DNA from: a virus
Direction: 5' to 3' (one strand)
Virus record (IMG/VR): IMGVR_UViG_3300049255_000280
Coordinates: 1 to 51,083 of that record
DNA length: 51,083 nucleotides
The position numbers and the translations under genes are program-made. Under the pieces are notes generated by a model. That model searched no databases. It was given only the letters and a program-made list of their open reading frames with translations, and was not told the origin of the DNA. This document shows positions 3,234-34,701 of this stretch, one piece after another; within the stretch, counting starts at the first letter, position 1, and every line of letters starts with the position of its first letter.

Positions 3234-3309
3234 GCCGGGGTAGCTCAACTGGTAGAGCACTCGATTCGTAATCAAGCGGTCGCCGGTTCAACTCCGGCCT
3301 CCGGCCCCA
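3234..3309 (+). tRNA. tRNA-Thr (anticodon CGT), CCA encoded
   Basis: It folds as a full cloverleaf. Acceptor GCCGGGG (3234-3240) pairs with CTCCGGC (3299-3305) with one G-T. The D stem is GCTC/GAGC, and the T arm is GCCGG-TTCAACT-CCGGC. The anticodon loop TTCGTAA (3265-3271) gives CGT, which reads ACG. The first acceptor pairs G-C and C-G fit threonine identity. Two oddities: the anticodon stem CTCGA/TCAAG has a central C-A mismatch, and the discriminator base is C. CCA is encoded at 3307-3309. It lies well inside the phage block, so it is probably phage cargo rather than the integration target. Confidence 0.85.
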
Positions 3310-3576: not shown

Positions 3577-3732
3577 ATGCTCAAGACTTTCAAGCCTCGC
3601 CAGTATGTCCCGGCGATGATCTATTTGATCGACGGCGTGCGCGTCCCCAAGCACGTCTTCGAAGCCCGGCAGATTTTCGGGGAGTATCATGGCGCGCGAT
3701 TCGAAGCGCTGGAGGTACGGCGGCTCAAATGA
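3577..3732 (+). CDS. Small hypothetical protein
   Basis: A 51-residue protein starting MLKTFKPRQYVPAMIYLIDG, with a short hydrophobic stretch and a basic C-terminal end. No ribosome-binding site is visible, and a strong stem lies just upstream. It overlaps the first methyltransferase by 4 bases (ATGA), which supports its reality and implies coupling. Function unknown. Confidence 0.5.
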   Translation: MLKTFKPRQYVPAMIYLIDGVRVPKHVFEARQIFGEYHGARFEALEVRRLK

Positions 3733-5225
3733 CCATCACGCCCGCGATGGCGCGGCGCATTGAGATCTGGCCCACCGGCCGGCTGGTGCCGTACGCGAAG
3801 AACGCGCGGACGCACTCGCCCGAGCAGGTCGCCCAGATCGCGGCCTCCATCGTGGAGTTCGGCTTCGTCAACCCGATCCTCGTCGACACAAACGCGGGGA
3901 TCATAGCCGGCCACGGTCGGCTTTTGGCGGCGCGCAAGCTGGGCCTCGGGGAATGTCCAGTGGTGGTGCTGGACCATCTCTCCGAGACCCAGCGTCGTGC
4001 GTACATCATCGCTGACAACAAGCTGGCGCAGAACGCCGGGTGGGACGACGCGACGCTGGCCGCCGAGTTGGGCGATCTCGAAGCCGAAGGCGTGGATCTG
4101 TCCGTCGTTGGATTCTCCGACGAGGAGGTGGAGGAACTGCTGGCCAAGGACGACGAGCCGGACACCGCCGCGGAATCCAGCGAGGAGGTCGTGCCGGATG
4201 CTCCAGAGAACCCGGTCACCCGGCCTGGCGACGTGTGGATCATTGGCTCGCACCGCCTGATCTGCGGCGATTGCCGCGACCTCGCGGTCGTGAGCCGGTT
4301 GCTCAATCCGGCGAAGAAGGATGCCCGGCAGGTCAACGTTGCGATCACCTCGCCGCCCTATGCTTCGCAGCGGGCATACGATCCGGCCAGCGGATTCAAA
4401 CCTATCCCGCCGACGGAGTACGTGGCTTGGTACGCCGACGTGGCGGCAAACGTGGCCGCCGTGCTGGCGCCTGACGGTTCGTACCTCCTGAACATCAAGG
4501 AGCACGCGCAGGACGGCGAGCGCAGCCTGTACGTGAAGGATTTGGTGCTGGCGCACAAACGCCAGTGGGGATGGCGTTTCGTGGATGAGTTCTGCTGGCG
4601 CAAGACCGACGACGGCGTGCCTGGCGGGTGGGGCAACCGCTTCAAGAACGCCTGGGAGCCGGTGTTTCACTTCTGCCGCGAGCAGAAGATCAAGTTCCAC
4701 CCGAAGAGGGTCGGCCACTGGTCGGACGACTGCTTCGATTATTCGCCCAACAACCCCAAGTCCACGTCGGGGAGTGGCCTGCTCGGCACCGGCCCGCGCG
4801 GCGCGGCGGCGGATCGCGGCAAGAACCACGACGCATGGCAGACCAGCCACCAAAACCTTCAAAACATGGAGGGCCGCCACGGCGGGATCGCGCGCCCGTC
4901 GAACGTGATCGAGGTCAAAAGCGAGAGCAGCCAGGGATCGCACAGCGCGCCGTTCCCCCGCGCGCTGGTCGAGTTCTTTGTGAAGGCGTTCTCGGACGAT
5001 GGCGACGTGGTGTTCGATCCGTTTCTCGGCAGCGGGACCACCATCGCGGCGGCGGCCGGACTCGGGCGCGTCGGGTGTGGCTGCGAGATCAGCCCGGCGT
5101 ACTGCGACGTGATCGTGCAGCGGATCTCGGCGCTCACCGGCGAGCCTGCGATGCTCCACGAGACGAGTCAGACGTTCAACGATGCCGCGCACGAGCGTGG
5201 TATCGAGTTGCGGAAGACGGCATGA
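3729..5225 (+). CDS. ParB-like domain fused to a DNA methyltransferase (TSPPY type)
   Basis: A 498-residue two-domain protein. Residues about 10-110 form a ParB/Srx-type domain (NARTHS, NPILVD, IIAGHGRLLAARKLG). A linker then leads to a beta-class amino-methyltransferase with motif IV TSPPY near residue 215 and motif I DPFLGSGTT near residue 440. Motif order IV before I defines the beta class; SPPY occurs in N4-cytosine and some N6-adenine enzymes, so the base is unsure. It lacks a restriction partner and is followed, with a 4-base overlap, by a second fusion of the same design. Likely role: phage DNA methylation. Confidence 0.85.
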   Translation: MTITPAMARRIEIWPTGRLVPYAKNARTHSPEQVAQIAASIVEFGFVNPILVDTNAGIIAGHGRLLAARKLGLGECPVVVLDHLSETQRRAYIIADNKLAQNAGWDDATLAAELGDLEAEGVDLSVVGFSDEEVEELLAKDDEPDTAAESSEEVVPDAPENPVTRPGDVWIIGSHRLICGDCRDLAVVSRLLNPAKKDARQVNVAITSPPYASQRAYDPASGFKPIPPTEYVAWYADVAANVAAVLAPDGSYLLNIKEHAQDGERSLYVKDLVLAHKRQWGWRFVDEFCWRKTDDGVPGGWGNRFKNAWEPVFHFCREQKIKFHPKRVGHWSDDCFDYSPNNPKSTSGSGLLGTGPRGAAADRGKNHDAWQTSHQNLQNMEGRHGGIARPSNVIEVKSESSQGSHSAPFPRALVEFFVKAFSDDGDVVFDPFLGSGTTIAAAAGLGRVGCGCEISPAYCDVIVQRISALTGEPAMLHETSQTFNDAAHERGIELRKTA

Positions 5226-17581: not shown

Positions 17582-18595
17582 ATGCCCGCGAGAGTACAAC
17601 AGCTTGTCCTTGGCCTCGGAGCGAATAAGCAGACCGCCATCGGCACGGCGGGGACCACGTTCCTCCGCTTCAAGAAGCTCGATACGACCATCACGACGCC
17701 GAAGCCGGTATTCGAGAACGACGCCGCCGAGATCGGCAAGGGTCATGAGTTCATCACGCAGACGTTTCCGTCGCATTACGATGTGGCCAACCGCCTCGAG
17801 AAGTACGCCAGCGCCGAGTTCGTTACCTGGGCCGTGGCTTACGGTCTCGGCAACGCCACGGTGACCGGCTCGTCCGCGCCGTACACGTACACCATCGTGC
17901 CGATTGATCCTGGCACCACGCTCGAACTGCCGTACTTCTCGCTGGTCGAGCAGGTCGCCGAGGGCGGCGGCAAGGCGGTCGATAACCTTTACGTCGGTTG
18001 CGCCATCGAGGACTTCACGTACCAGTTCTCCTACGGGCCTGGCCGGTCGTCCTCGAAAATGACGGTCAACTGGGTTGGCTCCGGCCTGCTCACGACTCCG
18101 TCTGGCATCACGGTCCCGGCGCTGACGACCGAGAACAACATGTTGGCGGCATCCATGTCGCTGTCGGTCAACGGTGTGGATTACGTCTCGTCCAAGCGCA
18201 TCCTGTCCGGAACCATCGGGTGGAAGAACAACCTGCTGCTCAACGCGGGCTTCTTCCCTGGCTCCGGCTTGCAGAATGGCCTCCAGGTGCGCGGACGCAT
18301 GGAGATCGGCGCTCGCGTGCCGACCTTCCAGTTCACCGCGCGCCTGCTCGCGACCTCGACGGAATACACGACGCTCGTCAACCAGACCACCGGCACGGCG
18401 ACGCTCACCGTCCAGCACGATGCGAACAACTCCGTCTCGTTCACGTTCCCGCAGATGGCCTTCCAGATGGCAGAGAACGCGGAAGCCGATGGCATCGTGG
18501 CCGTAACTGTCACTGGCGCGCCGCAGTACAACACGACGGCCAACAACGTGATGTCCGCCGTCACGAAGTGCGGCATCAACAACATCGCGCAGTAA
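17582..18595 (+). CDS. Major tail tube protein
   Basis: A 337-residue beta-rich protein rich in Thr, Gly and Asn. It starts MPARVQQLVLGLGANKQTAI and includes SKMTVNWVGSGLLTTP and RVPTFQFTARLLATSTEY. It lies between tail-completion genes and the frameshifted tail chaperone pair, the usual place of the tube gene. Size and composition fit siphophage tube proteins, which polymerise around the tape measure. Confidence 0.75.
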   Translation: MPARVQQLVLGLGANKQTAIGTAGTTFLRFKKLDTTITTPKPVFENDAAEIGKGHEFITQTFPSHYDVANRLEKYASAEFVTWAVAYGLGNATVTGSSAPYTYTIVPIDPGTTLELPYFSLVEQVAEGGGKAVDNLYVGCAIEDFTYQFSYGPGRSSSKMTVNWVGSGLLTTPSGITVPALTTENNMLAASMSLSVNGVDYVSSKRILSGTIGWKNNLLLNAGFFPGSGLQNGLQVRGRMEIGARVPTFQFTARLLATSTEYTTLVNQTTGTATLTVQHDANNSVSFTFPQMAFQMAENAEADGIVAVTVTGAPQYNTTANNVMSAVTKCGINNIAQ

Positions 18596-18618: not shown

Positions 18619-19233
18619 ATGTACGGCAGCATTCCCGACCAGGGCATCACCATCAAAGTGCCTAACCCGCCCAAGGCGGCCCGCGTCCGTCTTCCCACCA
18701 GCGACGAGATGCTGGGCCGCCTGGCGGCGCAGAAGTCGATCCGGCGCACCATCGGCCGGCGCAAATCGCAGACGCAGTTCATTCCGAATCCGCAGGCCGA
18801 TCTCGCCTTGTTCAACCAGATTCGGTTGGACAAGGACGGCGCGGAGTTCGACGAGTTCGAGGCCAGCAACGCCGTCTCGAAGCTTACCTTCTGCGAGGTC
18901 ACGGACTGCGAGCGTGTTGGCGACGAGTACCGCATCACGCTCAAGACTCCGTTTGGGGACACCACCCACACGATGCGCATCCCGACGCAGCGGGACGTGA
19001 CGCTATACAGGCGCACGGTTGTGTCGGCGACCGATCTCCCGCACGGCCAGGAGGAGATCCGTTACCGCACGGAACCGGCTATCGATCTGTACGACTCCGT
19101 GGTCGCCAAAGCCGAAGGCTACATTGACGGCCTCAAGATGACGGACGTGCCGCCGCACCACAAGTCGGCGGTCGTCGTCGAACTTGTTCAGGCCATCGAC
19201 GATCTCGACCCGCAGGTCGACCCAAACTCCTAG
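18619..19233 (+). CDS. Tail assembly chaperone, gpG-like (short form)
   Basis: A 204-residue protein between the tube and the tape measure genes. It contains alternating helices and strands (GRLAAQKSIRRTIGRRKSQT, CERVGDEYRITLKTPFGD) and ends with an acidic helix (AVVVELVQAIDDLDPQ). The stop TAG at 19231 lies 4 nt after a slippery heptamer, which adds a long extension in the -1 frame. In lambda, G and GT chaperone the tape measure in this way. AGGAG precedes the ATG. Confidence 0.7.
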   Translation: MYGSIPDQGITIKVPNPPKAARVRLPTSDEMLGRLAAQKSIRRTIGRRKSQTQFIPNPQADLALFNQIRLDKDGAEFDEFEASNAVSKLTFCEVTDCERVGDEYRITLKTPFGDTTHTMRIPTQRDVTLYRRTVVSATDLPHGQEEIRYRTEPAIDLYDSVVAKAEGYIDGLKMTDVPPHHKSAVVVELVQAIDDLDPQVDPNS

Positions 19234-19682
19234 GGCCGGATGAGTGGCCGCATCCGGTCCCTCTCCGGCTGCTCGTCTATCGGTCCATCCACCAGGAGGA
19301 TCTCTGCGACGGCGGCGCGGACGGCCCGCACGGTTGCCCCGACGCGAACGATGTAACGTGCGGAAAGTGCGGGCACGAGCGCACGGTGGGCGACACCAAC
19401 GCGCCTGGAGCCTGCCCGCATTGCGGCTCCTGGCAGTACAACGTCAATCGCTGCTCTCATTGCCGACTCGACGACCTGGACCACATGCGGTCCCACTCGG
19501 TCGCCGGTCGCCTCTTTGAGCGGGTCCTCGAACTGGAGTTCGATGCGGCTCACTTCAGCGTCCCATGGACCGACGTAAACGCCGAGGAGGTGCGTGGGCT
19601 TCAGATCGTCAAAGAAGAACGCGAGCGATATCGGCAGGAACTCGCGCACAACAATCCAATCCAACCACCAAGGCCACAATGA
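18619..19682 (+). CDS. Tail assembly chaperone, gpGT-like fusion by -1 frameshift
   Basis: Slipping back one base at 19227 joins the gpG-like frame to an open frame ending at 19682, giving 354 residues. The added part begins LLGPDEWPHPVPLRLLVY and contains two zinc-ribbon-like Cys groups: CGKCGHE, then CPHCGSW and CSHC. It ends with a helix (IVKEERERYRQELA). The frame has no good start of its own before a GTG at 19386, and the region upstream of that already codes sensible protein, so fusion is the best reading. A T domain built on zinc ribbons is unusual. Confidence 0.75.
19221..19261 (+). promoter_or_regulatory. -1 programmed ribosomal frameshift signal
   Basis: The heptamer C CCA AAC (19221-19227) is in the X XXY YYZ register of the gpG-like frame. 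A 5-nt spacer follows, then GGGCCGGATG (19233-19242) pairs with CATCCGGTCCC (19251-19261), with one bulged T at 19258 and an 8-nt loop. This is the classic slippery site plus downstream stem layout. The stop codon of the short form lies between them. Confidence 0.8.
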
Positions 19683-19939
19683 ACAATCCAACACCACCTT
19701 GCTCTGTGTGCGGGACGCCGGTCGAGATGGAGCTCGACCAGCAGTCCATCCGCTTCTCGTCTGGAGTCGGCAGCACCGCCATCGTAATCGAGCACCCGAC
19801 GCAGGTCGCGTGCCTGGCGTGCGGCAGTCTGCTGCACCTCGTCATTGCTGGCATCCAGAACATCCAGTTGAAGACCTCCGTCGTGCCGCCCGCGAAGCGG
19901 CAGTTGGTGGTCCCGATCAGTCGCGTTCGCGTCGGTTAG
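19679..19939 (+). CDS. Small zinc-ribbon protein
   Basis: An 86-residue protein with CSVCG near residue 8 and CLACG near residue 44, flanking beta strands (VEMELDQQSIRFSSG, STAIVIEHP), which together suggest a single zinc ribbon. Its start overlaps the stop of the frameshifted chaperone extension (ATGA), so it is coupled to that frame. The extra zinc-ribbon gene here has no counterpart in lambda. Confidence 0.55.
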   Translation: MNNPTPPCSVCGTPVEMELDQQSIRFSSGVGSTAIVIEHPTQVACLACGSLLHLVIAGIQNIQLKTSVVPPAKRQLVVPISRVRVG

Positions 19940-19941
19940 CC

Positions 19942-20391
19942 ATGCCCTTTCAGGCCAAGATCACTCGCGCCCGGTGGGTCCTCGGGCCGTTCACGTCCGA
20001 GGACATGCTGGAAATCGGCAACGTGGTCGTGGATTCGATCAAGGCGCGCCTCCACAACGGCCTGAACGTTCGCGACGAGGAGGCCAAACCGCTCAAGCCG
20101 GGCCGCAACGGGAAGCGCGGTTATCCGGATTACAAGCTGGCGCGCGGTCTCCAACCCCTCCGCGACTGGTTCTGGACTGGTCGGACCATCCGCTCGCTCA
20201 AGGTGAAGCAGGTGAGCGAGAACCGTTGTGTCATCGGCTTTATCAACCCGAACGCCGACGCCGTCGCGCACATCAACAACATTCGCGAACGCGCGTTCGG
20301 TATCTCGCCCAAGGACCGGCAGGCCATGATCGCGGTCATCAGCGCGATCCTCCGCACGTCGCGGGTCATCCAGGTGAGGAAGGCGGCATAG
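19942..20391 (+). CDS. Virion morphogenesis-like protein
   Basis: A 149-residue basic protein starting MPFQAKITRARWVLGPFTSE. The segments FWTGRTIRSLKVKQV, FINPNADAVAHINNIRERAF and GISPKDRQAMIAVI are reminiscent of phage virion morphogenesis or tail completion proteins, which typically end with a similar ARxH...FLGxSxxD pattern. Confidence in the family is low. It is one gene before the tape measure. Confidence 0.45.
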   Translation: MPFQAKITRARWVLGPFTSEDMLEIGNVVVDSIKARLHNGLNVRDEEAKPLKPGRNGKRGYPDYKLARGLQPLRDWFWTGRTIRSLKVKQVSENRCVIGFINPNADAVAHINNIRERAFGISPKDRQAMIAVISAILRTSRVIQVRKAA

Positions 20392-20394
20392 CTC

Positions 20395-23300
20395 ATGGAT
20401 CAAGAATCCGTCGTACTCGAACTCGATCCTCGCAGTGTTCATGCAGCCATCGTCCAGGCCAACAAGGACGTTGAGTCTTGGGAGAAGGGCACGGTCGGCG
20501 CGGGTGAGCGCATGCAGAAGTCGCTCGAACGCATGGCCGACATGCTCATCAAGATCAACGACAAGTCCCGCAGCTCGATGGAGCGGTTGACGCAGTCGAT
20601 CGAGAAGCAGGCCGCGGCGTATGGCAAAACCGGGGTGGACAAGCTGATCGCAGAACGCGACCGTCTGATCAAGAAGCTCGGCGACGAGCAGGGCATGGTG
20701 GATCGTGTGCGCGCCGCCTACGAGAAGATGATCGCCGTCGAGGAGAAAAAGAACGGCGGCGGCGGGGAGGCGTTCGGCAAGCAAATCGAGGCGATGATCC
20801 GCGACCCGCTCAACGGCGCGAAGGAGGCGGCGGCGGGCCTGCTGGAGAAGGTCGGCACCATGGGTGCTGGCCTGGCGGCCGGAGTCGGGGTCCTCACCGC
20901 CATCGCCGCAGCCGGGTGGGAGGCGGCCAAGAGTCTCGGCGAGTACGGCACGCGCATCCGCGACGTGGAGATGCGTACCGGGCTGGCGGCCAAGGAGGTC
21001 GGCCAGTTCGAGTTTGCCGCCAAGGCTGTCGGCCAGGACGTGTCGATTGTCGAGCGCCTGATGCGCGGGCTGTCGCAGGCCGCCGACGACAACTCCCGCG
21101 AGGGCGACAAGGCGCGAGCCACGATGGCGCGGTTGGGCATCGAAATGCGCACGGCGTCCGGAGAGATGAAGCCCACGTCTCTCATCTTGAGCGAGGTGTC
21201 GGACGCGCTGAACAAGCTGCCGGAGGGAGTCCAGCGCGACGCCGCCGCGATGGATCTGTTCAAGCGGGTGGGCGTCGAGGCCATCCCGTTCCTCACGGAG
21301 TTGAACGAGAACCTGCGCACGGCCAAGGAGCAGGGATTCGGTCCGACCGAGGACGATGTGCGCCGCTTCACCGAGTATCAGCACAACGTCGCCGAGTTGG
21401 AGACGAAGTGGGACGCGCTGATGCGCAAGTTCAAGGAGGGCCTCGTCACTACGCTCACGATCTCCATCAACTGGGTCGGCGCGGGTGTGAAGTGGTTCCT
21501 CGACAACGTGACAACCTACGGCGACGACATGCGCCAGCGTCAGGAGGAGGAGGACGCGCGGCAGATCGCGGCGGCCGGAGGCGTGGGTGCCCACGGGTCC
21601 AGGAGCCAGCACCGCGCGCTCCAGCAGCAGATGGACAAGATGGCGCCCGGCTTCATGCAGGACAAGCCCGCTATCGAGGCCCGGATCGCGGAGGTGCGGC
21701 AGCAGCAGCAGGACCTTGTGGGCAACCTCGGTTGGATGGCCATGATCGCACCCACCGACGACGAGTTGGCGCGCATGAAAAAGGCCGACGAGATCCAGAA
21801 GGACATCGAGCAGATGCAGAACACGCTCGTTGAAGCGGAGAAGGCCGTTCACCGCCAGGATCTCAAGGAGGGCCAGGGCTACATCGACCGTCTGCGCTCC
21901 CGGTACTTCGGCACCCACGACGGCATCGAGGAGGCGTACCAGCAGGCCAAGAAGGACGTGGAGCGGTACCGCAAAGAGTTGTTCGAACCGGAGCACCCGC
22001 TCACCAAGCCGGAGGCGTCCGACCTCAACAAGAAGCTCGTCGAAGCGGAGGGTCGCGAGGCGCGCGCCAAGGCTTCGCTCGATGCGGAGTCGGAGCGCAA
22101 GAAGTTCATGACGGAGGCGCAGTCGTTCGTCCGGAAGGGCGATGAGGCCGAACTGGACGCTATCGGGAAGATTTACTACCAGCGCGACCTCCTGTTGCAG
22201 CAGGCTGCCAAGGTCAAGGCGTCGGAAGCGGAGATCGCGGCCATTCGCAAGTCTGCCGACGAGCAGGCGGGCAAGGTGCTGAAGGAGTCGATGGAGAAGT
22301 TCGAGGAGTACGACCAGAAGCGCCGCGCCGACCAGCAGAAGCGGTTCCTGGAGATGTTCCTGCCCAGCAAAGAGCAAATGAAGGAGTGGGAGGACGTGTT
22401 CAAAGCGCAGGAGCGCATCGAGGATATCGGTGTGCAGGCGCAGAAGGAGGCCCTGCGGCGGCACGCGAACATGGAGGCCAAGCAGGCCGAGACGCCGGAG
22501 GACGCATACCGGATTCGCGTCGATCTGGCCGAGAAGCTGGCGCAGATCGAGATTGACCGGATCTTGCGCGAGTCCGATCACGCGAAGCAGATGGTGATGG
22601 CCGCCGAGGCGCAGAAGCAACTCTACACGGACCTCGCGGCGGCGCAGGACGAGTTGGAGGAGAAGCGCGCGGAAGCGGCGCGCAAGGCCGCGGAGGAATC
22701 GCAGCGTCAACTCGACACGATCCAGAAGACCTCCTCTGGCCTGTTCCACACGCTGTTCACGAAGCCCCAGGACTTCCCCAACCAACTCGGCAGCACGGTC
22801 CACGAGGCGATCCTCAAGCCGGTGACTGAGGGGCTGGGCGGCATGGTCGCGGGAGTACTCCATCCGATCATCTATGGGTCGGACGGCCAGGGCGGCATCT
22901 CCGGCGCGCTCAAGGGCATCTTCGGCGGCGGCAAGCAGGACCCGGTGAAGACGGCGACTGACCAGAACACCGTGGCCACGGCGCAGAACTCGGCGCACGT
23001 GTGGGCGCTCACGGCGACGCTGGCGGCGTTCATGGGCATGTCCGCACCGGCAGTCGCCAGCCCGAGTATCCCCGGCCTGGCGGGCGCATCCATGCCCGCG
23101 ATCACCATGGCGATGCCGGGAATCGGCGGGGGCGCGTCCATGGCGAGTCTCCCGGCCCTCGCGTTGTCGTTGGGCACGGCGGCGTACTCGCCCGCTCCGT
23201 GGGCCGGCGGCGGCGCGGCGGCTGGCGCGACTGGCGGCTATACACCTGCTCCGTGGGCTGGCGGTGGCGGGTATTCCCCGCTCGGCGGGTACTCTCCGGT

Positions 23301-24225
23301 TGGCGGTTCGTCTCCGCTCGCGCATGGCGGCCTTGCGGGGCTGGCGGCTCCTGGCGGCAAGGGAGGGTTCTCCCTCTCGAACCTGAAGGGATCGCTTGGC
23401 AACCTGGAGAACTTCGTCATCAACCCGAAGATTTGGGACGCGACCGGCACGAGCTTCGGCGCTTACGCTGGCTCCGTCCTCACGTCTCCGGCCGCGATGA
23501 TGGCCGGGATGATGATGGGTACCAGTGGCCTCATGGGGTCGCATCGCGGCACCTGGGGCGGCGTGGCCATGGGGACCGCGGGCGGCGCGCTCGTCGGCGC
23601 GGGTATCGGCGCGCAGTTCGGCGGCCCGATGGGCGCGGCGCTGGGCGCTGGCATCGGCGCGGTCGCGGGCTTTGGCATCGGCCTCGGCGAGAAGTTGTTC
23701 GGCGTTGAGACGCCGGAGAACCAGGCCAAGCGACTCGCGAAGCAACTGTACTCGATCAGCATCGACAACTCGATGGCGAAGCAGATCGTGCAAATCGCGC
23801 AGCAGAAGTACGCCGGTGAGGTCAGCGTCGCCGTCCGTGATCCCGACGTGCGGAAGATGCTGATGCTGTACTCGCAGGCGACCGGCCAGAAGATGCCTCT
23901 CTCCGCGACCACGCCGCAGTCGGCGGCGCTCGCGGAATCGGGCGGGCGTCTCTATCAGCAGGCCACTTACGTGAACGGCACGCCGTACACGTTCCAATCG
24001 AATCTGCCGGTGATGGGCGGTTACCCGACCGGCACGTACCCGACTCCGGGCAGCGCCATGTCGCTCCAGTTGAACGTCTCCGGCCAGGGCGCGGCGCAGT
24101 TCGTCGCCGGGCAGGTCGTGACGCCGGAGTTCGTGCAGGCCCAGTGGTCGAGCGCCGGGGCGTCGAGTAACGGGCGTCTCCAGAACTCGGCCATGATACA
24201 ACAACCTGGGCTGGTGGTGGCCTAA
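20395..24225 (+). CDS. Tape measure protein
   Basis: A 1276-residue protein, the longest-helix gene of the tail cluster. The N-terminal third is coiled coil and contains a hydrophobic Ala/Gly segment (LEKVGTMGAGLAAGVGVLTA). The middle is charged coiled coil with repeated KEL/EEK/RADQQKR stretches. The C-terminal third is Gly/Ala/Pro-rich with glycine-zipper hydrophobic helices (GAALGAGIGAVAGFGIGLGE). These are standard tape measure traits; it would set tail length and help DNA cross the membrane. The next gene is on the other strand. Confidence 0.85.
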   Translation: MDQESVVLELDPRSVHAAIVQANKDVESWEKGTVGAGERMQKSLERMADMLIKINDKSRSSMERLTQSIEKQAAAYGKTGVDKLIAERDRLIKKLGDEQGMVDRVRAAYEKMIAVEEKKNGGGGEAFGKQIEAMIRDPLNGAKEAAAGLLEKVGTMGAGLAAGVGVLTAIAAAGWEAAKSLGEYGTRIRDVEMRTGLAAKEVGQFEFAAKAVGQDVSIVERLMRGLSQAADDNSREGDKARATMARLGIEMRTASGEMKPTSLILSEVSDALNKLPEGVQRDAAAMDLFKRVGVEAIPFLTELNENLRTAKEQGFGPTEDDVRRFTEYQHNVAELETKWDALMRKFKEGLVTTLTISINWVGAGVKWFLDNVTTYGDDMRQRQEEEDARQIAAAGGVGAHGSRSQHRALQQQMDKMAPGFMQDKPAIEARIAEVRQQQQDLVGNLGWMAMIAPTDDELARMKKADEIQKDIEQMQNTLVEAEKAVHRQDLKEGQGYIDRLRSRYFGTHDGIEEAYQQAKKDVERYRKELFEPEHPLTKPEASDLNKKLVEAEGREARAKASLDAESERKKFMTEAQSFVRKGDEAELDAIGKIYYQRDLLLQQAAKVKASEAEIAAIRKSADEQAGKVLKESMEKFEEYDQKRRADQQKRFLEMFLPSKEQMKEWEDVFKAQERIEDIGVQAQKEALRRHANMEAKQAETPEDAYRIRVDLAEKLAQIEIDRILRESDHAKQMVMAAEAQKQLYTDLAAAQDELEEKRAEAARKAAEESQRQLDTIQKTSSGLFHTLFTKPQDFPNQLGSTVHEAILKPVTEGLGGMVAGVLHPIIYGSDGQGGISGALKGIFGGGKQDPVKTATDQNTVATAQNSAHVWALTATLAAFMGMSAPAVASPSIPGLAGASMPAITMAMPGIGGGASMASLPALALSLGTAAYSPAPWAGGGAAAGATGGYTPAPWAGGGGYSPLGGYSPVGGSSPLAHGGLAGLAAPGGKGGFSLSNLKGSLGNLENFVINPKIWDATGTSFGAYAGSVLTSPAAMMAGMMMGTSGLMGSHRGTWGGVAMGTAGGALVGAGIGAQFGGPMGAALGAGIGAVAGFGIGLGEKLFGVETPENQAKRLAKQLYSISIDNSMAKQIVQIAQQKYAGEVSVAVRDPDVRKMLMLYSQATGQKMPLSATTPQSAALAESGGRLYQQATYVNGTPYTFQSNLPVMGGYPTGTYPTPGSAMSLQLNVSGQGAAQFVAGQVVTPEFVQAQWSSAGASSNGRLQNSAMIQQPGLVVA

Positions 24226-24274: not shown

Positions 24275-25306
24275 TTACTTGCTCTCATTCGGCGTCGGAC
24301 CTAATTTCCCGAAAATCTTATACGCGTGATCAAAGTCTCCAACACTTCCATGAAACAGTTTCTTATCGAGACGGATCGGCTTCGGCGGTGTCGCAGTTGG
24401 CACCAAGGTCGTATCCGTGGATTCGACTCCGTTTGACGTTTTCGTCTTTTCGATAGCGACCCAGCTTCTCAGCACTACTACACTGTCCTCGGACTCATAT
24501 AGAAGCTTCAAAGGGTTGGTGATGTTTGTTCCATCGATAAACGAGATGCCGAGTTCTTGCAGATAACCCTTTGCGGCTGGGTCAGCTTGGAATAGAACCT
24601 GTTCGCACTGACCGCCACCCCACCGTTGGGGTATATGCGAATAAATCGCCTCAGAGAACTGGTAGATATAGGCGGCCATCGAGAAAATGCAACCTGTTGA
24701 AAGGATAGCCATCTTGGCCCAACCTGTCGCCATTCCACTAAAGCTTGTTAGCTTCAGAGCTCGTCGATAGAACCTTATGGCCTCAATCCCCAACACGGCT
24801 GTACCGGCAGCACTAATCCATAGTGAAACCGCGGCACCAAAACCTCTCAAGATCCAGTGATCAGCCAAATCATTCGGATCACCCCATTCCGTCAAGCCCG
24901 AATAGACGGGATTCGCTCTTGAAAGCGGAAGACTAATCAACAGAGCAAGGGGAAGTGGCAACAATAGCTTGAGCGCGCTGGGTGGTCTGAGCAAAGCCAA
25001 AAGGAACTTTCGAGTGCTTCCCGTACGTGCTGCAGACCCAACTGCTGAAAGCACGGGAATAGCGAACAGAACGAGGCTAAGAACCACAAGCGCGCCCGTA
25101 AGTATCGCTTGAGGTTTCCAGAACGAGAAGTTCGTAATTTCGAACTGCTCCAAATATGCGTTAGCTGTCAAAAGCCCTACCGAATAAACGACTGCGACTA
25201 AAAGGGCTCCCGCCTTAGCGATTTGTTCGAAATCGAGATCCTCTCGATGTTCAAAGCCTGTGCTACTGCTTCGGGCAGACAATTGACCCGCTGCTGAATC
25301 CGACAT
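24275..25306 (-). CDS. Multi-pass membrane protein, opposite-strand cargo gene (moron)
   Basis: A 343-residue protein with about six hydrophobic segments (AGALLVAVVYSVGLLTANAY, AILTGALVVLSLVLFAIPVL, LLLPLPLALLISLPL, ISAAGTAVLGIEAI, MAILSTGCIFSMAAYIY) and a soluble C-terminal tail. It lies between the tape measure and the next tail gene, on the opposite strand, and its base composition is visibly less GC-rich than both neighbours. That is the pattern of a moron picked up by transfer. Plausible roles are superinfection exclusion or host fitness; no family is recognised. Confidence 0.6.
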   Translation of the reverse strand: MSDSAAGQLSARSSSTGFEHREDLDFEQIAKAGALLVAVVYSVGLLTANAYLEQFEITNFSFWKPQAILTGALVVLSLVLFAIPVLSAVGSAARTGSTRKFLLALLRPPSALKLLLPLPLALLISLPLSRANPVYSGLTEWGDPNDLADHWILRGFGAAVSLWISAAGTAVLGIEAIRFYRRALKLTSFSGMATGWAKMAILSTGCIFSMAAYIYQFSEAIYSHIPQRWGGGQCEQVLFQADPAAKGYLQELGISFIDGTNITNPLKLLYESEDSVVVLRSWVAIEKTKTSNGVESTDTTLVPTATPPKPIRLDKKLFHGSVGDFDHAYKIFGKLGPTPNESK

Positions 25307-30808: not shown

Positions 30809-33800
30809 TTGGATCCGATCTACAAATTCCAGCCTCACCGGACCATGCACCTCCAGGGCTTTGACGCCTATGGCGCGGCGGCTGCCCTTTGGGGCGCGTC
30901 CGAAACCGCCTTCAACGTCTCCGGAGTGTTCCGCGACCAGGGCGATTTTGCGGTTCTGCTGCTGTTCCAGAAGGACGATCCCTTCGGCCACCCGCGCTTC
31001 TCCTACCTGCCGGATGGCAACATCTCCGGGCTCACGCTCGACTTCGATGTCGAGTTCCAGGGCATCCAAGCGTTTGAGTCGAAGCGCTGGCCCTGGATCG
31101 ATTGGGCCTACATCAACGCCTCTGACGAGAGCGGGAACTTGCTCCAGCACTCGCTTCGCGATCTGGCGATCGGCCCCGCCGGCCGAACCGGAGCGTCGGG
31201 CACGTTCACGCTCAACCTGGGCACGCCGACAAGCAGCGACCGCGTGACGCTCTGGTATCAGAACCAGTCGTTCGATTACAGCGTGAGTTCCGCCAGTGGC
31301 GGTACCTCCTGCGTGCAGAGCATCTGGTGGGCAGCGGCGGCGTCCTCGTGCGAGCAGGATATGTGGTGGCAGAGCGCCGTCTCGTCGTGCTACCAGGCCA
31401 TGTGGTGGCAGGGCGACCACGAGTCCTGCGTCCAAGCGATGTGGGGCGGCCAGGGAGCCAACTACACCCACTTCGTTGAGATCCAAACGCAGGCGCACGG
31501 GTGGAACCACATCTATGGCGTCCAGGAGGGCAGTCTCAACAGTGCGCAGATCGCGCAGAACATCGCGGCGCAGATCAACGGCTCGGACCCGTACTGCGCG
31601 GCCACGGTGGGCGGCCAGTACGGCAACGAGATCACCGTCACGCTCAAGACCCTGATCCCGATGACGGACTGCGTCGTGTCGAGTTCCGATGGCTCGGCAT
31701 CTGCGACGTTGTCGATGTATGTCCATTGGGTGCAGATCGGCAGCAACAAGTATCAGGTCGCAGAGGATGGCCTCAACAGCCAGCAGATCGCGCAGGCGCT
31801 CGCGGGGCAGATCAATGCCGCCGACCCGAATTGCACCGCTGTGGCGGGCGGCCCGGATGGAACCAACGAGATCGTCATTACGCTCAAGAGCGGTGTCGCC
31901 GGGCCGGTCACCGTGTCGAGTTCGGACGGCTCGGGCACGGTCACGTTGAGTGGTTACACCCATTGGGTGAAGATCGGAACCGTCCAGTACTCCTGCGCGC
32001 AGGGCAGTCTTACTTCGGCGCAGATCGCGGCCAACATCGCGGCGCAGATCGCCGCCAGCGACCCCAACTGCACGGCCACGGTCGGCGGTACCTCCGGTAA
32101 CGGCGTGATGGTATCGCTCCGGAGCGGGGTCGTCGGACCCATCGCGGTGTCGAGTTCGGACGGCTCCGGCCCGGCGACACTGAGCGACGCCACGCACAGC
32201 GTGACTATCGCGGGCATCGTGTACTCCTGCGACCAGGATGGACTCTCGTCGGCGCAGATCGCACAAAACATCGCCGACCAGATCAACGCGAGCGACTCCA
32301 ACTGTTCGGCCACGGTGGGCGGGGACGGCAACACGAACGACATCACCATCGCGCTCAAGACCGGCGTCCAAGGACCGATCAACGTCTCCAGTTCGGACGG
32401 TTCCGCGGCGGCTACGCTCACGGCGTTCGACCCCGCCGCCATGTGCTCGCAACTCGCTACGGGCATCAACAACGTGGACTGGACGACGTATGGGCCGGTG
32501 GTGCTCCACGCGACCGCCTCTGGCAACCAGATCACCATCACCGCCGAGCCGGGCGCGGACGGGAACGCGGTCACGTTCTACGAGCTGCACGCCAGCGAGA
32601 ACCTCTACTTCTCGCCCTCGACGCTGCAACTGGCGGGTGGCTCCTCGGACAACGTGAAGTGGCATTTGACGATCGACTTCGGAGCGTTGGGCTGGACGGA
32701 TGTGACGAAGGTGTGGCTCACGTTTGCGCCCGCGCTGGCCAACGGCGCGGCCTATACGCCGACCGAGTGGAGCGTCAACGTCACCAACTGGCGGTCACCG
32801 ACCCCAACAACGTCCGCGCGCTCAAGGTCGCCGGGCCTGGCTCCCTCCGGTTGGAGGAGGACGACTATTGGGTGGCGCAGGCTGGCTATTGGGAGGACCC
32901 GTCGCTGGTGGCGCCCAAGGTGGCGGCGTACTGGAGCATGGGCCGGGCGATCCGGTCGGCGTACAGCCAGTACGAGACGCGCACGCTCACCATCGAGACG
33001 CATTGCCAGTCCACCCACGATGTTTACCTGGGGACGTGGCTGGACACGAACTGCGGCATCATCTCCGCGACCCTCGATGGCGGTGCGCCGGTCACGCTCG
33101 ACTGCTACGGCTCCGGCATGCTGGCGCGGCGGCGTCTGTTCCAGAACGTGGCGGCGGGCCAGCACACCATCGTGATCTCGATGACCGGCAACAAGAACGC
33201 GAGCAGTGATGGGTGGTACTTCTACTTCGACTTCCTGGAGTGCGCGGTCCTCTCGGACGTGCCCGACGCGCCGGAGACGCGATCCGATATTGGCCTGGCC
33301 ACCGACTATGACACCGACAACACGTACAAGCTCTCGCCGCAACGCCTGATCTGGAACATCCAGAAGCTCGGGCTCGTGGGCGAGATCGATCATTACTGCG
33401 GCGTCTTCTGGTGGAACCAGCGCAAAGCGTCGGGCGGCGTCTATCCGAGTGCGACGATCACGTTCGACGGGGCATGGCAGGACCAGGACACGATTTGGGT
33501 CCACATCGGCGACGGCGCGGTTGGCAAGACCGTCTTCCCCGCCGACACCTCCGAGACCATCGCGGCGCACTTCGCATACTTCATCAACGCGACGCTGGTC
33601 GGGGTGTGGGCCGAGGCCAACGGGGCGGTCCTCACCATTACGTGCCGGAGCACCGCCGCTAACTGGCTGTACTCGTTGTCGGTCGATACCAGCACGGCGA
33701 ACGGCACCGCCACGGTCGTCGGCGACCTGCAAACCGGCGCGGCGGCTCCCACGTGGGTCATCGACCCGACCGCCAGCCAGCCACTCAACCGCGCGATCCG

Positions 33801-34701
33801 CGACTGGTACGCGGATTACTTCTCCGCGCTCAAGGCGGCCGGAATCGGCGTGGTCGTCTCGTTCTCGCAAGAGTTGGTCAACCCGCCCGACGATCCGGCC
33901 GGCGGCGCGGTGTGGACGCAGAGATATCCGGACAACAGCCCGGCGACCACTGACACCGGCTTTGGCGGGCTGTATAGCTCCATGTCGGCGTTCAGCACGC
34001 CGGTCGTGAACTATCTGGCCTCGGTTTACGCCGAGATGGGCGCGCTCATGGCGGCGGCTGGATTGACGCCCCGGCTCCAGTTCGGTGAGGTGCTGTGGTG
34101 GTACATCATCGGCGCGAGTGGCATGGGGTTCTATGACGCCGACACCAAGACTGCTGCGCAGGCGACCCTTGGCCGCGCGCTCCACACGTTCCTCACTTCC
34201 AACGACGACCCGAGCGTCAACGGGTACGCGGACGCGAACTTCCTGGCGGCGCGGTTGGCCGGTTACGTGGCGGCGGTGCAGGCGGCGGTCCTCGCGCAGG
34301 TGCCGTCTGCGCTGTTCGAGATCCTGTGGCCGTTGGACGTGAACGATCCGACGAACTGCCGGTTGCTGCATTACGTGAACCTGCCGCCGGCGTGGACGGC
34401 GCGCGCTGGCTCCGGGTTCGATACGTTCATGTGCGAGGGATTCCAGTACGGCGGGATCGACTTCAATCTCGACGAGGCGCAGACCTGCGCGGGATACCCG
34501 TTCACGGTGCTCTCCTGGGACCGCGCCCACTGCCGGTATTTGGAGGGCTGGTACAACCCGGCCTGGCCGTGGGCGCGCGAGTTTCAAGCTGCGCAGCGGA
34601 CGGCGGTTCCGCTGATCAAGTTTTGGGCTTACGACCACATCTGCCTGTTCGGATGGCCGTTGCCCTTGCCGAAGCAACCCCCCGCTCCGGTGATCCTCTA
34701 A
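30809..34701 (+). CDS. Large tail/receptor protein with tandem repeats, frameshifted at about 32791
   Basis: Two frames that overlap near 32791 together code one protein of about 1297 residues (the first ends in NVTNW, the second continues AVTDPNNVRALKVAG). An N-terminal domain (about 1-165) is followed by four 13-residue SCxQxMWW repeats and four 79-residue repeats, then a galactose-binding-like domain (YLGTWLDTNCGIISATLDGG). Last comes a TIM-barrel-like, glycoside-hydrolase-like domain with Trp-rich ends (VLWWYIIGASGMGFYD). The start is a TTG at 30809 with weak support. The break could be decay, an assembly indel, or rarely frameshifting; there is no slippery heptamer there. Confidence 0.7.
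31307..31462 (+). repeat. Four 39-bp (13-residue) tandem repeats, SCxQxMWW type
   Basis: Four in-frame units of 39 bases encode SCVQSIWW, SCEQDMWW, SCYQAMWW and SCVQAMWG, each followed by a variable 5-residue tail. The Ser-Cys, Gln and Trp positions are fixed while the rest varies. It suggests a cystine or aromatic ladder at the virion surface. Confidence 0.75.
31463..32425 (+). repeat. Four about 79-residue repeats in the large tail protein
   Basis: Units at 31463-31717, 31718-31954, 31955-32188 and 32189-32425. Each has a strand (xHWVxI), a helix LxSxQIAxxxAxQI, a Cys near NC, and ends VSSSDGSxxxTL. The first unit is longer at its start. They look like recently duplicated tail-fibre beta-alpha modules. 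Confidence 0.75.

Follow-up and report, generated by a model that had tools for sequence, protein, structure and literature searches.

The window analyzed here (the whole stretch of 51,083 nucleotides, IMG/VR virus record IMGVR_UViG_3300049255_000280) very probably encodes, at positions 18619–19233, a lambda gpG-type tail assembly chaperone, whose −1 slippage would yield a GT-like fusion with a metal-binding T part (we assign to this reading a probability of roughly 0.87). Judged from comparative evidence, the programmed −1 frameshift of the G/GT kind is real and conserved. Indeed, the slip site, the stem, the −1 coding, the lack of a start codon, the conservation of the cysteines, and the modular character of an insert among them are established by sequence comparison, and we infer the slippage with its efficiency, zinc binding, the chaperone role, and the binding of T to the tube. 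The frameshift itself, of the lambda G/GT type, was already known; for a cysteine-rich, probably zinc-binding T extension in this role, we found no earlier description.

In the mechanism that we propose, a minority of ribosomes would step back by one base on C CCA AAC, the Pro and Asn tRNAs re-pairing with CCC and AAA, and an 18-bp composite stem beginning 3–6 nt downstream would aid the slippage. The slipped ribosomes would read 151 further codons, giving a GT-like fusion of ~354 aa, and most ribosomes would end at the TAG at 19231, giving G alone. The T part would comprise a discontinuous four-cysteine metal site (Cys29, Cys39, Cys78, and Cys81), behind which the C-terminal half is helical; the T of the window's clade would also carry an inserted second zinc ribbon (Cys47, Cys50, Cys65, and Cys68). 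By analogy with lambda, G would coat the tape measure protein and T would recruit the tube subunit, while zinc would fold the T part.

All the genes of the locus lie on the + strand. A putative tail tube protein gene (17582–18595, 337 aa), assigned on the basis of its position and without a family match of its own in the family libraries, PHROGs included, precedes the G-like ORF (18619–19233, 204 aa, 0 frame, stop TAG at 19231–19233). The slippery heptamer (19221–19227) and the T-like extension in the −1 frame (19227–19682, stop TGA at 19680–19682) are followed by a second small zinc-ribbon-like ORF of 86 aa (19679–19939), the start of which overlaps the T stop (ATGA), by a conserved 149-aa ORF with no family match (19942–20391), and by the tape measure protein gene (20395–24225, 1276 aa), recognized by the PHROG tail length tape measure profiles (E down to 5.8e-11). 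A previous reading, made from the sequence only, had placed the G-like gene between the tube and tape measure genes, and this placement holds. The same order, with the tube assigned by position, recurs in L297, a locus of clade C (described below) on a 4.7-Mb Acidobacteriota contig, in which the 346-aa gene 5′ of G/T resembles the putative tube of the window (stretch GKGHEFPTQSF).

The sequence-only reading had also drawn attention to the zinc-ribbon gene at 19679. The ORF is real and has two CxxC motifs, but a general link to T did not emerge: among the clade A loci examined, it is present only in the window, L003, L004, and L048, and it is found also in L077. This restriction to the nearest relatives of the window suggests a local accessory gene. 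In most other relatives, the 149-aa gene starts within or just past the T end, and the general rule drawn from the comparison is that the next gene is closely coupled to the T end, rather than that a second zinc-ribbon gene is present. At position 7565 of L297, the tape measure gene starts inside the T end with nothing between, and the locus lacks the 149-aa gene found in clade A.

The 3′ end of the G-like ORF reads, in the 0 frame, GTC GAC CCA AAC TCC TAG, with the heptamer CCCAAAC in register; this feature had been noticed from the sequence only, and both the reading frame and its conservation bear it out. As a word, CCCAAAC is no rarer than expected by chance in the window (2 copies vs 4.7 expected), thus the argument has to come from comparison: the position, the register, and the conservation of the heptamer are what exceed chance. 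The closest relatives, clade A, are ~38 contigs retrieved from IMG/VR scans with G and T, with a G 49–90% identical to that of the window. All those with a readable G end have CCCAAAC, a stop 3 nt on, and a −1 ORF, and the codons GAC CCA AAC are unchanged in 32/32 distinct sequences, whereas the neighbouring codons vary. CCA is the rarest Pro codon in the structural genes of the window (6/248 Pro codons).

Clade B (>150 contigs; the scans gave 89 T-bearing and 156 G-bearing stretches, and 80 of each were kept) has a G 35–38% identical to that of the window and lacks CCCAAAC. Its G ends with GAC CCG GAA TAG; as in clade A, T continues in the −1 frame and carries its cysteine array. The heptamer CCCGGAA is in register in 61 of the 66 distinct sequences, with CTCGGAA in four and ATCGGAA in one, and a further T locus of this clade (L145) has TCCGGAA. 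The T frame is intact in these members (L222, L228, L233, L244, L247, and L145), thus slippage may do without the Pro codon and depend on GAA only. In the PRFect study, CCCGGAA is the most common form of the “threetwotwo” motif in SEA-PHAGES frameshift genes, nearly all of which are tail chaperones, and G:U re-pairing has been suggested for slippage on it (PMC10885494). Clade B uses this same heptamer, whereas clade A, to which the window belongs, uses the classical CCCAAAC instead.

Clade C came to light when T profiles were run against 299, and then 399, genomes of the host class. CCCAAAC precedes T in ~20 of the ~22 distinct sequences; the two exceptions, again in register, are GGGAAAC in L285 and A AAT TTT in L281. 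Compared across the clades, slippery sequences turn over at one fixed site (CCCAAAC, GGGAAAC, AAATTTT, and CCCGGAA), the letters changing while the slippery rule is kept. The locus is therefore a natural experiment in slip-site evolution, with at least four slippery sequences at one fixed site.

Clade C is also found on contigs of 4.4, 4.7, and >9 Mb, which indicates chromosomal prophages in Acidobacteriota. Clade A and B loci also occur in metagenome-assembled genomes (MAGs) of Solibacteraceae, Bryobacterales, and other Acidobacteriia; binning errors are possible in such host assignments, a doubt from which the megabase contigs of clade C are free. In one Solibacteraceae MAG (G001, the source of L076–L078 and L082), seven T copies were found, one of clade C type and the others of clades A and B, with several prophages in one bin. 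Overall, the bearers seem to be soil phages of Acidobacteria, and the cultured phage records contained no relative of G or T from clades A, B, or C. The G/GT frameshift is thereby extended to a large uncultured group of Acidobacteriota phages, in a gene that no library names.

The cysteines of T are organized in two parts. The eight-cysteine region (19305–19463) contains the core site, formed by Cys29 (19305), Cys39 (19335), Cys78 (19452), and Cys81 (19461), and the inserted zinc ribbon (19359–19424), with Cys47 and Cys50 in CGKC and Cys65 and Cys68 in CPHC. All eight are present in 32/32 clade A sequences. The core four are common to clades A, B, and C; the CxxC...CxxC ribbon is present in clades A and B and absent from clade C, the T of which aligns with both ends of the T profile, with the middle missing and the core LC...C...CxxC kept. 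Clade C thus splits the eight cysteines into a core site and an insert, and no structural assumption is needed. The previous description of a T domain made of zinc ribbons is refined accordingly: the domain is cysteine-rich and clades A and B do have a CxxC-x14-CxxC ribbon, but the part shared by all clades is the four-cysteine core, and the ribbon is an insert.

From its sequence, T is probably a zinc-binding domain. Its structural model (pLDDT 80.7) has predicted strands at residues 44–47, 53–55, and 73–75, in addition to CGKC and CPHC. Foldseek returned local zinc-ribbon fragments only, and the local similarity is to the zinc ribbons of HypA, Elf1, and an RNA polymerase subunit. The comparison with HypA (PF01155) gave an E value of 0.0021 and 18.5 bits, below the Pfam gathering cut-off of 28.9. 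With HypA-type and rubredoxin-like ribbons, the insert shares the CxxC-x14-CxxC spacing and local similarity, below every curated cut-off; unlike them, it is interleaved with a second four-cysteine site and frameshift-fused to a tail protein. Neither G nor T had an accepted match in Pfam, PHROGs, or NCBIfam, and the PDB sequence profiles gave nothing useful. In the open-access literature, subscription papers lying outside that scope, we found no description of zinc ribbons in frameshifted tail chaperones, and no earlier description was found, in a tail-chaperone role, of a putative T type with a four-cysteine core site and an optional inserted zinc ribbon. Phage Loki was considered as a precedent and set aside, as its zinc ribbon sits in an unrelated gene. 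The role of the T domain is understood in few phages; thus, a small T defined by its cysteines, with a removable ribbon, is a useful handle, and its predicted metal site lends itself to knock-out one residue at a time.

The frameshift could be real and the zinc-binding extension could nevertheless serve something other than tube recruitment, such as the binding of nucleic acid or of a host factor, or the sensing of metal or redox state to time tail building. Binding to nucleic acids or to proteins is common among zinc ribbons, and the local similarities listed above agree with such a role, as does the absence of a comparable cysteine array from the T parts of the capsid-related phages RSP and RDJL Phi 2. 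Conversely, the position of the extension, the frameshift architecture, and its universal retention fit a GT role, and the helical half past the cysteine region is likewise conserved; we consider the different role unlikely, although it is the most serious of the alternatives. Less likely again is the bolder proposal that a metal-dependent T makes the GT chaperone, and hence tail assembly, conditional on the zinc or redox state of the host; in it, the inserted ribbon would be a further module for control or binding, specific to the clade, and the coupled small zinc-ribbon protein encoded at 19679 would be its partner.

The GT reading, in which T is made as an extension of G, requires the −1 frame to be coding. 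In the window this frame is open from 19221 to 19682 and closed upstream by a TGA at 19125; its 153 codons agree with the ~150 first counted, and the three cysteine groups reported with them (CGKCG, CPHC, and CSHC) are all present. After the slip it reads ..D-P-N-L-L-G-P-D-E-W-P... In clade A, T had a pairwise dN/dS of 0.178 when read in the −1 frame, compared with 1.4 and 2.1 for the remaining frames; G gave 0.113 in frame 0, and the stretch of T between the slip site and any possible start gave 0.28. In clade B, it was 0.174 for T and 0.269 for codons 4–22, which precede the usual first possible start. By this comparison, purifying selection acts at the amino-acid level on the −1 frame, beginning immediately past the slip site. 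Furthermore, five clade A loci (L005, L057, L058, L059, and L062) have a −1-frame stop one codon 5′ of the heptamer, and 29/65 clade B sequences have one within three codons upstream of the slip site. With stops directly 5′ of the heptamer, translation from G can enter the −1 frame only at the slip site.

These data bear on the possibility that T is a separate gene, expressed from an internal start or by re-initiation after the G stop, with the heptamer being incidental. Some relatives do have a −1-frame TTG or GTG 12–27 codons past the slip site, and the G stop forms part of an ATGA (GGAATGA) in a few members of clade B. However, no start codon precedes the first cysteine in the window, in several members of clade A, and in many of clade C. 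The first ATG, GTG, or TTG in the −1 frame of the window is the GTG at 19386, with no start before codon 55, and four of the eight cysteines precede it, so a protein started there would lose them. Moreover, protein-level selection on the −1 frame already acts ahead of any start, the slip site is either invariant or swapped for another slippery site, and among the relatives of clades A, B, and C we found no separately started T gene without the heptamer. A separate gene is thus very improbable, and T, with no usable start in its frame and constraint from the slip site on, appears to be read only through G. The programmed frameshift put forward by the sequence-only reading is supported by the invariant or replaced slippery site, by the selection on the −1 frame, and by the −1 stops upstream. 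Automated annotation would overlook the complete T part, which lacks a start codon of its own.

In G/GT frameshifts, a downstream stimulatory structure is common but not obligatory. In clade A, we found a conserved composite stem-loop of 18 bp (19231–19274, + strand), with 92.6% of the cells paired and three pairs changed on both sides, the covariation score of which exceeded all 500 shuffles and all slid controls. The predicted fold of the window itself contains the composite stem from 19234 to 19270 (MFE −24.2 kcal/mol, z −2.34), with its outermost pairs broken. All the bases of this stem also encode T, thus part of its conservation is at protein level. The synonymous divergence of T in clade A is 0.33 in the first 25 codons vs 0.54–0.65 later, as expected if an RNA structure also constrains them. 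Clade C has a 12-bp stem 6 nt 3′ of the slip site (87.3% of cells paired); in three sequences a double change turns a G-C pair into C-G, and 4/500 shuffles reached the covariation score of the stem. Covarying conserved stems are therefore present downstream of the slip site in clades A and C. The clade B members inspected have a candidate stem, GCCCGG/CCGGGC, ~7 nt downstream; the RNAalifold consensus for this clade pairs into the slip site and was left out as evidence. A different structure had previously been proposed as stimulator, a bulged 10-bp hairpin (GGGCCGGATG/CATCCGGTCCC, 19233–19261, + strand). It can be drawn in the window with a 5-nt spacer, but only 66.7% of the cells are paired, there is no excess covariation, and it is not the MFE fold of the full region; the longer composite stem is conserved instead. 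Of the features for which conservation in related phages had been proposed as a check, the heptamer and the extension at amino-acid level are conserved and the hairpin is not.

Slippage of the polymerase during transcription, instead of slippage of the ribosome, would give the same −1 product and is inseparable from it by sequence alone. Nevertheless, CCCAAAC, GGGAAAC, and CCCGGAA contain no homopolymer run longer than three, and an in-register X XXY YYZ with a downstream stem is a ribosomal feature, which leaves this explanation with hardly any weight. A sequencing error or a decayed gene is refuted by conservation, the same break being found in >30 distinct clade A, >60 clade B, and ~22 clade C sequences, and both sides of it being under purifying selection in clades A and B.

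The putative identity of G as a tail chaperone, claimed from the start, is supported by its position and, weakly, by structural similarity to the HK97 chaperone. More precisely, its AlphaFold model is poor (pLDDT 57), and the best of the 1000 PDB chains compared with VIA-align was 2ob9, the HK97 tail assembly chaperone, with Z 4.5 over 67 residues, a weak score from a low-confidence model; a non-chaperone scores 4.4. That the HK97 chaperone comes out as top match of the model is no more than suggestive. Foldseek with G gave nothing convincing in the viral library, the hhalign profile comparison of G with HK97 gp13 gave an E value of 0.019 and a probability of 2%, the T profile was not significant against HK97 T, and the G profile had no significant match to the chaperones of RSP and RDJL Phi 2.

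In lambda, the frameshift lies at the end of G and T exists only as a fusion, G covering the tape measure protein and T bringing in the tube (PMC5009743). As with lambda gpG/gpGT, the pair of the window lies between tube and tape measure, with a −1 shift at an X XXY YYZ heptamer at the G end and T only as a fusion; unlike lambda, it has C CCA AAC with an extended stem and a cysteine-rich, probably zinc-binding T. No library profile connects G or T of the window with the lambda proteins. HK97 gp13 and its −1 fusion have the same layout as the window (NC_002167 annotation), and HK97 T has no cysteine cluster. HK97 T starts with P-G-V-K-F-L and clade B T with P-G-V-R-F-L, the shared P-G-V-[KR]-F-L lying soon after the slip site in both (L090, 407–742, for HK97; L074, 4573–5028, for clade B); this shared start may reflect a homology too weak for a profile test. 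HK97 gp13 ends with CCC CCG GCG TAA, again a C CCG G context.

The major capsid protein of the window is 48–52% identical to those of the Pseudomonas phages RSP and KPP23 and of the Roseobacter phages RDJL. Like the window, RSP and RDJL Phi 2 have a −1 extension between tube and tape measure; theirs follows A AAA AAC and, unlike that of the window, is a T of ~120 aa without zinc motifs. The tube and G of the window had no detectable relation to their counterparts in these two phages.

Some further observations concern the rest of the window and its relatives. The tape measure protein of L077 (10178–15376) has 1732 aa vs 1276 aa in the window, with a large insertion in its C-terminal part; this may point to an extra domain or to a longer tail. 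In the window, the tape measure gene and the tail gene that follows it are separated by a moron-like 343-aa ORF with hydrophobic stretches on the opposite strand (24275–25306, − strand), for which PHROG and Pfam gave no match. At 3729–5225, a ParB-like nuclease domain is fused to an N6/N4 DNA methyltransferase (PHROG E 5.8e-102), close to a tRNA-Thr(CGT) at 3234–3309. Finally, the 752-aa protein encoded at 32443–34701 contains the TIM-barrel domain of non-contractile tail sheath proteins (PF23845, E 3e-25).
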